A DNA stretch of 64,000 bases from Gluconacetobacter azotocaptans (lineage in GTDB: Bacteria; Pseudomonadota; Alphaproteobacteria; Acetobacterales; Acetobacteraceae). The stretch spans positions 248,001 through 312,000 of the forward strand of contig NZ_JABEQF010000004.1 of NCBI RefSeq assembly GCF_014174355.1, in the 5' to 3' direction. Position 1 is the stretch's first letter. Each line of letters begins with the position of its first letter. The notes beneath the pieces are model-generated. The model was not told the DNA's origin and did not search any database. It was given only the letters and a program-made list of their open reading frames with translations. This document shows positions 1,825-9,879 of the stretch, piece after piece. Position numbers and translations under genes: made by a program.

Positions 1825-1852
1825 CTTGCGAAAACGGCATGGCCTCCCATAT
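1825..1852 (+). promoter_or_regulatory. sigma32-like heat-shock promoter
   Basis: CTTGCGAAA at 1825-1833 and CCCATAT at 1846-1852 are separated by 12 bp. This is close to the RpoH consensus CTTGAAA, 11-16 bp, CCCATNT. The site lies upstream of an Hsp20 gene, where such a promoter is expected. The predicted transcript would have a leader of roughly 55-60 nt containing the thermometer-like hairpin. Confidence 0.65.
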
Positions 1853-1890
1853 CATCGTGCATGCGGGCGCCATGACGGGTCCGCATGATT

Positions 1891-1911
1891 GTCTCGCTCG
1901 GTTGAGGAGGC
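1891..1911 (+). promoter_or_regulatory. ROSE-like RNA thermometer over the hsp20 ribosome binding site
   Basis: The leader can fold so that 1891-1899 pairs with 1904-1911: G-C, U-G, C-G, U-A, C-G, a bulged G at 1896, then C-G, U-A, C-G closed by a GGUU loop. The whole Shine-Dalgarno GAGGAGG (1904-1910) is in the stem. A UCGCU strand with a bulged G opposite the Shine-Dalgarno is the signature of ROSE thermometers, which melt at heat-shock temperature. The pairing is seen directly; thermosensing is inferred. Confidence 0.6.
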
Positions 1912-1915
1912 CTGC

Positions 1916-2401
1916 GTGTCGGGAAGACTTTTTACATCTCCCATGTTTCTTGGTTTCGACCATCTGGAACAAATGTTGGAACGTGCATCCAAAGGGACAT
2001 CTGACGGCTATCCGCCCTATAATATCGAACAGATCAGCCCGACGGCGCTGCGGATCACGCTGGCGGTGGCGGGCTTCGTGATGGACGATCTGCAGATCAC
2101 CCAGGAAGACAACCAGTTGGTGATCCGGGGACGGCAGACCGACGATTCCCAGGGGCGGATCTTTCTGCATCGCGGCATCGCCGCCCGTCAGTTCCAGAAG
2201 GCGTTCGTGCTGGCCGAGGGAATCGAGGTCGGCGGAGCGTGGCTTGATAACGGGCTGCTGCATATCGATCTTCTGCGTCCCGCGCCCGAAGTGCGGGTCC
2301 GGCGGATCGAGATCACGCAGGGGCGGGGCGGGGGCGCCAATGAAATCGACGTTCCCAAGCCGCGTGCCCCGCGTGTCGTGCGCGTGATCGAGGAAGAATG
2401 A
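1916..2401 (+). CDS. small heat-shock protein, Hsp20/IbpA type
   Basis: ATP-independent holdase that binds unfolding proteins. The GTG at 1916 is chosen because GAGGAGG ends 5 nt upstream; an in-frame TTG at 1889 would put the ribosome site inside the gene. The 161-residue product has a short N-arm (FLGFDHLEQMLERA), an alpha-crystallin domain from about residue 30 to 135 with the beta-strand block QLVIRGRQ, and an IEI motif (RRIEIT) like the IxI oligomerisation motif of IbpA. An acidic, proline-containing tail follows. Probably regulated by sigma32 and by the leader hairpin. The DUF1150 gene follows after 97 bp. Confidence 0.93.
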   Translation: MSGRLFTSPMFLGFDHLEQMLERASKGTSDGYPPYNIEQISPTALRITLAVAGFVMDDLQITQEDNQLVIRGRQTDDSQGRIFLHRGIAARQFQKAFVLAEGIEVGGAWLDNGLLHIDLLRPAPEVRVRRIEITQGRGGGANEIDVPKPRAPRVVRVIEEE

Positions 2402-2498: not shown

Positions 2499-2762
2499 AT
2501 GAGAATTACGACCCAGAACGGCCGGGTGGTGCTTCAGCCGGACCAGGCGCAGCTTCCCGGTGACGTCCGCCACCTGACGGACACCCAGCTTCTGTCCCTT
2601 GGCGTGTCGCGGGTGGCCTATATCAAGGCCGTGGTGATCGAAGGCCAGGATGTCTTCGCCATCCATGCCGCGGACGGCACGCCGATGGCCCTGACCGACG
2701 ATCAGGACACGGCGATCGAAGCCATTCTGCAACATGAAATGGTGCCGGCCCTGGTACACTGA
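2499..2762 (+). CDS. DUF1150 family protein
   Basis: An 87-residue protein of unknown function in a family usually found next to hsp20 in Alphaproteobacteria, as here. The ATG at 2499 is preceded by GGAGG at 2485-2489. The conserved core includes LTDTQLLSLGVSRVAYIKAV followed by a predicted beta-rich segment and an alanine/aspartate-rich C-terminal helix. No signal peptide or membrane segment. Its position suggests a role linked to heat stress, but this is only inferred from neighbourhood. Confidence 0.8.
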   Translation: MRITTQNGRVVLQPDQAQLPGDVRHLTDTQLLSLGVSRVAYIKAVVIEGQDVFAIHAADGTPMALTDDQDTAIEAILQHEMVPALVH

Positions 2763-9448: not shown

Positions 9449-9577
9449 GATGGTGCCCAGAAGAAGACTCGAACTTCCACGACCTTTCGGCCACAGGTAC
9501 CTGAAACCTGCGCGTCTACCAATTCCGCCATCTGGGCACAGAGGCTCCCCGTTTCCGGGGTGGTGAGGGGCGTTTAC
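9449..9577. repeat. tRNA-Leu direct repeat, unit 1
   Basis: A 129-bp unit containing the tRNA and about 40 bp of its 5' leader. It matches 9751-9879 at 128 of 129 positions; the single difference is A at 9538 against T at 9840, the base just before the tRNA 5' end. Confidence 0.95.
9451..9537 (-). tRNA. tRNA-Leu (CAG), copy 1
   Basis: An 87-nt tRNA with encoded CCA. The acceptor arm pairs GCCCAGA with TCTGGGC, the anticodon stem CAGGT/ACCTG holds the loop TTCAGGT (anticodon CAG), and a long variable arm marks it as class II. The T-arm carries GTTCGAGTC. The 5' leader contains a CCCCG-GAAA-CGGGG hairpin. The sequence is identical to the copy 302 bp to the right. Confidence 0.96.
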
Positions 9578-9750: not shown

Positions 9751-9879
9751 GATGGTGCCCAGAAGAAGACTCGAACTTCCACGACCTTTCGGCCACAGGT
9801 ACCTGAAACCTGCGCGTCTACCAATTCCGCCATCTGGGCTCAGAGGCTCCCCGTTTCCGGGGTGGTGAGGGGCGTTTAC
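9751..9879. repeat. tRNA-Leu direct repeat, unit 2
   Basis: Second unit of the 129-bp direct repeat, 302 bp from the first. The sequence outside the units on either side is unrelated, so the duplication ends sharply. The 173-bp spacer between the units contains no recognisable gene. Confidence 0.95.
9753..9839 (-). tRNA. tRNA-Leu (CAG), copy 2
   Basis: Identical in all 87 nt to the copy at 9451-9537, including the encoded CCA and the CAG anticodon. Its leader has the same CCCCG-GAAA-CGGGG hairpin at 9849-9862. As the upstream member on the minus strand it may be co-transcribed with copy 1; no terminator is visible between them on that strand. Confidence 0.96.

Follow-up and report, generated by a model that had tools for sequence, protein, structure and literature searches.

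A putative short ROSE-type RNA thermometer and an RpoH-type promoter upstream of hsp20 in Gluconacetobacter azotocaptans and other acetic acid bacteria

Short ROSE-like elements of two hairpins, in leaders of 61-62 nt behind a sigma32 promoter, are described upstream of Pseudomonas ibpA genes, where their function is established by experiment (PMC3669281). According to that description, a U(U/C)GCU core with G-C pairs on either side binds the Shine-Dalgarno (SD) sequence in hairpin II, which melts while hairpin I does not; single-nucleotide deletions that tighten hairpin II repress, and hairpin I can be removed without loss of temperature control, its disruption raising expression at 25 °C (PMC3669281). 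We find that the leader of hsp20, a small heat-shock protein (sHsp) gene of Gluconacetobacter azotocaptans, resembles these elements in having two hairpins in about 60 nt, a U(U/C)GCU-SD pairing with a bulged G, an unpaired start codon and a sigma32-type promoter, assigned here by consensus. The copy studied here also has its core flanked by G-C pairs, whereas relatives with a GCUUC arm differ from Pseudomonas ibpA in carrying a U-G below the core in place of the G-C pair. Pseudomonas belongs to the Gammaproteobacteria, the group in which function was shown, and the likeness is to the published description.

The Rfam ROSE model RF00435 represents a longer form: its 94 positions include a middle hairpin and a sensor stem extended over the AUG, both of which are missing from the hsp20 leader in a fold of 1859-1918. 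The two have in common the UYGCU/AGGA core with its bulged G, the position before an sHsp gene, and a first hairpin with a bulged G and a CC/GG tip, which in the RF00435 structure line has 6 bp and a 4-nt loop. An Rfam ROSE candidate, for which RNA-seq is reported to have detected no transcription start site, has been described before the Hsp20 gene GOX_RS07835 of Gluconobacter oxydans (PMC5756330). That candidate likewise precedes an sHsp gene in the Acetobacteraceae, but it is matched by RF00435, as are L172-L174, whereas the hsp20 leader is unmatched; since its 84 nt equal the length of the RF00435 matches at L172-L174, it probably belongs to another paralogue and not to the hsp20 orthologue. 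Among the matches listed in a search of the open-licence literature, there is no thermometer study of the hsp20 leader in Acetobacteraceae. The kind of thermometer is thus already known, and its short hsp20 version is missed by the current Rfam model.

We analysed a 64,000-nt stretch of DNA, here called the window, to which all unlabelled coordinates refer. Comparison of sequences, together with analogy to the tested elements, makes it very probable that hsp20 is under two-layer heat control, by an RpoH-type promoter and a short two-hairpin ROSE-type RNA thermometer. The features concerned are as follows.

1825-1833, plus strand: -35 box CTTGCGAAA of an RpoH-type promoter, from sequence, conserved in orthologous leaders
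1846-1852, plus strand: -10 box CCCATAT, 12 nt 3' of CTTGCGAAA, from sequence and conservation
1860-1887, plus strand: hairpin I, 9 bp with bulged G1869, CC (1870-1871)/GG (1877-1878) and a 5-nt loop, from fold and covariation
1891-1911, plus strand: hairpin II, the presumed temperature sensor, GUCUCGCUC (1891-1899) paired with GAGGAGGC (1904-1911), G1896 bulged, 4-nt loop, from fold and comparison
1894-1898, plus strand: ROSE core UCGCU with bulged G1896, pairing with AGGA at 1905-1908, from sequence, fold and conservation
1904-1910, plus strand: SD sequence GAGGAGG, all inside hairpin II, from sequence and fold
1916-2401, plus strand: hsp20, a 161-aa small heat-shock protein with a GTG start outside hairpin II (PF00011, E 1.1e-14)
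2499-2762, plus strand: DUF1150 gene, 3' of hsp20 (PF06620, E 1.5e-14)

Single-sequence folding of the leader (1859-1918) yields two hairpins, 1860-1887 and 1891-1911, in agreement with a preliminary description of this DNA that had anticipated a short leader of one or two hairpins. The same description had the SD entirely paired, one bulged G in a UCGCU context and the GTG directly after the stem, and each of these holds in the fold: GAGGAGG pairs with GUCUCGCUC at 1891-1899, G1896 is bulged within U1894-C-G-C-U1898 opposite A1905-G-G-A1908, and the start codon at 1916 is unpaired, 4 nt 3' of the hairpin II stem. The folding energy of the single sequence is unremarkable (z -1.5 for 1859-1918, z -1.1 for 1886-1915), so that the case for the element rests on conservation. 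An alternative fold of 1880-1925, with the GTG also paired (z -2.7), was rejected: it uses hairpin I bases and is absent, by eye, from L006-L008. The fourU class, defined by four consecutive U paired with AGGA, was likewise rejected, as the pairing arm reads GUCUCGCUC and contains no run of four U.

The top NCBIfam match for Hsp20 is IbpA, at 117.5 bits and thus below the cut-off of 212, and the GTG start agrees with the starts of aligned orthologues. Its nearest named orthologues suggest kinship of the genome with Gluconacetobacter and Nguyenibacter. The peptide deformylase gene def is divergent from hsp20 and starts at 1750; on the other side, the DUF1150 gene comes next after hsp20 and is possibly co-transcribed with it. 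Two side observations concern the rest of the window: a sigma70-like match (10/12, second box TATAAT) lies within the hsp20 coding region at 1994-2023; and on the minus strand, at 9451-9537 and 9753-9839, two genes for tRNA-Leu (CAG) lie about 300 nt apart and score equally in Rfam.

The promoter boxes read CTTGCGAAA-12-CCCATAT, close to the RpoH consensus CTTGAA-N13-18-CNCCATAT as quoted in PMC3669281. The pattern CTTGN16-18CCCATAT has a single match in the 4.13 Mb genome, the hsp20 promoter itself, and RpoH is encoded in the genome (TIGR02392 above cut-off). By themselves the boxes are weak evidence, since a looser pattern gives two matches in the window against 0.46 expected, and a weak sigma70-type match overlapping the promoter (TTGCGA-18-TATCAT, 9/12) counts against the assignment. 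Among 166 motif-bearing orthologous leaders, 148 have a CTTG box followed by a second box, CCA or CAA, with a spacer of 15-16 nt in 141 of these 148 and a median distance of 41 nt (range 34-75) from the second box to the ROSE core. Conserved boxes at a fixed spacing support one transcription start a few nucleotides 5' of hairpin I, which we place near 1858-1860, giving a predicted leader of about 58 nt whose 5' end is set by the promoter. The RpoH-type promoter named in the preliminary description is therefore borne out as to boxes, conservation and an encoded RpoH, and use of RpoH at this promoter is suggested by the consensus.

A strict core-plus-SD pattern precedes hsp20 in 166 of 170 orthologous leaders of Acetobacteraceae. 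Shuffled leaders carry it in 35 of 8500 cases, and the two strands of the 64 kb window hold a single copy. Three of the four leaders that lack it have a shifted SD (GAGGGAG) that still pairs and one, L164, has no motif; a looser pattern, CGCTC before a pairing SD, is found in 169/170. These 170 leaders (90 + 80 loci) come from two sets that overlap in part and so are not independent; 106 remain at no more than 85% identity. The genome's second hsp20 locus, L002, was left out of all orthologue counts except the count of protein motifs given below. With the boxes kept in 148/166 leaders and the core in 166/170, both layers of the heat control first proposed from the sequence are supported by comparative evidence.

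Of 169 leaders scored pair by pair, 164 form the complete set of eight sensor pairs; four of the other five have a C.A mismatch in the core, and one lacks the outermost pair. Sequence varies within this frame while pairing is kept. The 5' arm is mainly GUCUC or GCUUC, a swap that trades the positions of G-C and G-U pairs and leaves the computed stem energy identical (-9.2 kcal/mol each); SD variants such as GAGGGAGC or GAGGGGGC keep pairing; and one sensor pair is C-G in 81, U-G in 77 and U-A in 11 of the 169 leaders. The computed sensor energy is narrow (-8.15, s.d. 0.92, n = 106), and deletion of G1896 would take hairpin II from -9.2 to -13.0 kcal/mol by calculation.

Hairpin I was examined in the 106 non-redundant leaders in a fixed register whose sole anchors were the sequence-aligned GCC and GGG. 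Of the 530 cells of outer pairs 2-6, 467 hold standard pairs, compared with 140, 241, 280 and 188 when the register is slid by -2, -1, +1 and +2. Each of pairs 2 to 7 is above the best of 500 shuffles by at least 12 cells and occurs as five or six types of standard pair; for pair 8 the margin is one cell, and pairs 1 and 9 show no excess over the best shuffle. The uninterrupted outer stem is shorter than four pairs in 28/106 leaders in the fixed register; in some of these, for example L060 and L071, the anchor appears by eye to be displaced by one base and the stem itself not to be lost. The computed energy of hairpin I is variable (-11.6, s.d. 3.3, n = 106), in contrast to the narrow sensor. 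Alignment A3, which is gapless and has 14 leaders, gives the same picture of hairpin I, with 0/500 shuffles reaching any of five measures, while hairpin II is too conserved in it for two-sided changes. Alignments A1 and A2 were discarded, their sensor arms being misplaced because loop lengths vary. In some orthologous leaders (L048, L058, L069, L072, L083 and L159) a further hairpin seems, by eye, to separate hairpin I from the sensor, a layout midway from the short element to classical ROSE.

How far the element extends was followed by way of the protein and by a covariance model, R1, built on the gapless A3 (14 of the 22 leaders of one geometry). The Hsp20 query finds matches in 293/299 family genomes. 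In its own genome R1 returns the hsp20 locus at E 5.9e-11 and the next place at E 0.57; in the family it matches 153 of 200 genomes at E ≤ 0.1, and since it is biased to the geometry of A3, the 47 misses are not evidence of absence. The ten best family loci were fetched, and an sHsp gene lies just downstream in 10/10. Across the class R1 matches 35 of 289 genomes at E ≤ 0.1, its own included, and the matches in the other 34 are mostly weak (best 3.6e-4). Six of 29 loci fetched from these 34 (L211-L239) are beside hsp20, namely L211, L214, L215, L234, L237 and L239, and the other 23 are chance matches or unexplained.

The core, T[CT]GCT...[AG]GG[AG], lies at most 75 nt upstream of the gene for 23 of 27 close homologues from the class beyond the Acetobacteraceae, compared with 4.8% by shuffling, or 9.4% with the SD kept, and was not found in the 75 nt before the other four. 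At E ≤ 1, R1 picks out 14 of the 27 loci, in 14/14 cases within about 140 nt upstream of the gene. The 27 are the best-scoring homologues with a locus among the matches listed, from 132 non-family genomes with a match, and so are not a random sample; a few share a genus, and one of them, L260, is the same place as L215. Judging from these sequences the element is probably old: it is kept at almost every orthologue examined in the Acetobacteraceae, and looser versions of it precede the closest homologues in other Alphaproteobacteria.

The relation to classical ROSE is one of resemblance without a database match. The preliminary description had called the leader ROSE-like and suggested a search with the Rfam ROSE models; the core, the SD pairing and the two-hairpin layout uphold the name, but the RF00435 match failed to appear, with no hit in the window at the gathering cut-off of 45 bits and none even at E ≤ 10 in 1800-2000. 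Nor does RF00435 match 19 orthologous loci or L002. Because RF00435 models the longer form, we set Rfam aside as a deciding test. Elsewhere in the family, RF00435 is over the cut-off in 9 of 100 genomes and reaches E ≤ 1 in 13/100; in 142 class genomes, where stricter filters applied, it is over the cut-off in none and reaches E ≤ 0.001 in three. Fifteen of 23 RF00435 loci (20 family, 3 class) encode an sHsp 33-49% identical to Hsp20, and eight have no match to the Hsp20 query. For five of the 13 family genomes at E ≤ 1 (G006, G009, G037, G042 and G085) the hsp20 orthologue is among the matches listed, and in each the ROSE match is on a different contig from it. Matches off the orthologue's contig, and at sHsp genes of such low identity, indicate that at least some relatives have a classical ROSE before a paralogue as well as the short form before hsp20.

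R1 was also run on 22 loci from the ROSE search and on L002, giving five matches at E ≤ 1 and none at the rest. At L193, L187 and L179 the match is to hairpin I at the extreme 5' end of the ROSE match (E 0.056-0.92), at L002 it covers hairpin I and the middle hairpin (E 0.015), and at L189 it is short and elsewhere. We infer from these sequences, with R1 scores that are weak, that hairpin I and the sensor core may be shared by descent with classical ROSE, the middle hairpin and the start-codon stem being absent at hsp20.

The second hsp20 of the genome, L002 (about 1972-2085 of contig C21, minus strand), has a ROSE-like leader of its own, made up of a hairpin I (GGAACGCCAAUCGGGUUCC), a middle hairpin resembling the sensor core (CCCGCUCGCCGAGGGG) and a UUGCU/AGGA sensor. 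It encodes a different paralogue, 42% identical, and its leader shares hairpin I and the UUGCU/AGGA sensor with that of hsp20 but is longer by the extra middle hairpin. Leaders of this type were seen in 14/14 genus genomes searched, 12 with UUGCU and two with UUGCC; Rfam matched none of six tried. Three of the 14 (L272, L273 and L274) have a direct repeat ending CAGACCTTGCT or TAGACCTTGCT/CAGACCTTGCT, tandem copies of the anti-SD arm that would permit two alternative sensor hairpins.

What the leader hairpins are kept for can be read differently. An alternative that we consider unlikely is that they serve mainly as an sHsp operator, with Hsp20 binding its own leader and repressing when client-free, like E. 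coli IbpA, and melting being secondary. The protein motifs GIAxR and YPPY, which we take to be the equivalents of the R93 and Y34 sites in E. coli numbering, are present at 171/171 loci, L002 included, and this leaves room for a protein-sensing role of the leader. E. coli IbpA is described as repressing its own translation via the 5' UTR, and the required residues R93 and Y34 are reported to be well conserved in alphaproteobacterial IbpAs (PMC10474464). Conservation of hairpin I here, though the described Pseudomonas hairpin I is dispensable for temperature control, points the same way. Against this, GIAxR and YPPY may be kept for chaperone function, and a thermometer directly accounts for an SD hairpin that is imperfect and of narrow energy range; both mechanisms could also operate together.

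A combination of both is a still more speculative idea, and we offer it tentatively: hairpin I would be a separate second sensor, its bulged-G, CC/GG tip conserved from classical ROSE to the short form because the sHsp binds there, so that the leader integrates temperature through hairpin II and free chaperone through hairpin I, in what would be the ancestral design of alphaproteobacterial sHsp leaders.

By nearest-neighbour folding, little of the SD would open by 42 °C. In ViennaRNA the SD is 3-5% unpaired from 25 to 50 °C in 1859-1918; in 1859-1928 the unpaired share is 9% at 25 °C, reaching 16% by 42 °C and 23% by 50 °C; and in 1859-1945, where alternative folds include coding sequence, the trend is reversed, with 45% unpaired at 20 °C but 22% at 45-50 °C. 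The same calculation gives changes of no more than 0.10 from 25 to 50 °C for six accepted Rfam ROSE hits and thus does not discriminate. It is quite improbable that hairpin II is a plain SD-sequestering hairpin with constitutively low translation, all heat control being at the promoter: its computed -9.2 kcal/mol at 37 °C does predict little opening by 42 °C, but such a hairpin would need no bulged G and UYGCU core, yet these are kept in 169/170 leaders and 23/27 class homologues, and they form the core of the thermometers described as tested. That the conservation has a cause other than RNA structure, for instance a site in the DNA or the promoter of the divergent def gene, is hardly credible, for while the intergenic region does serve two genes, hairpin I changes on both sides yet keeps its pairs, covariation that largely contradicts such a cause, and, in leaders with both boxes, the core keeps a fairly constant spacing to the promoter of hsp20.

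In the two-layer reading, which we favour, the RpoH-type promoter would give a short leader mRNA starting near 1859, in which hairpin I, with its bulged G and CC/GG tip, would be the stable and conserved module at the 5' side. Hairpin II, whose pairing is borne out by comparison, would hide the whole SD in a helix made imperfect by a single bulged G within the UCGCU/AGGA core. By analogy with the tested relatives in kind, ribosome binding would be blocked in the cool, and upon heat shock hairpin II would open and Hsp20 be made.

These results predict that the range of ROSE-type thermometers extends to one hsp20 gene conserved in the acetic acid bacteria and in their relatives. They show a short form that the current Rfam model misses, unmatched here while its core precedes 23/27 class homologues. 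The 106 non-redundant natural variants of the 50-nt sensor, including an isoenergetic arm swap, form a set for testing how the melting point of such leaders may be tuned.
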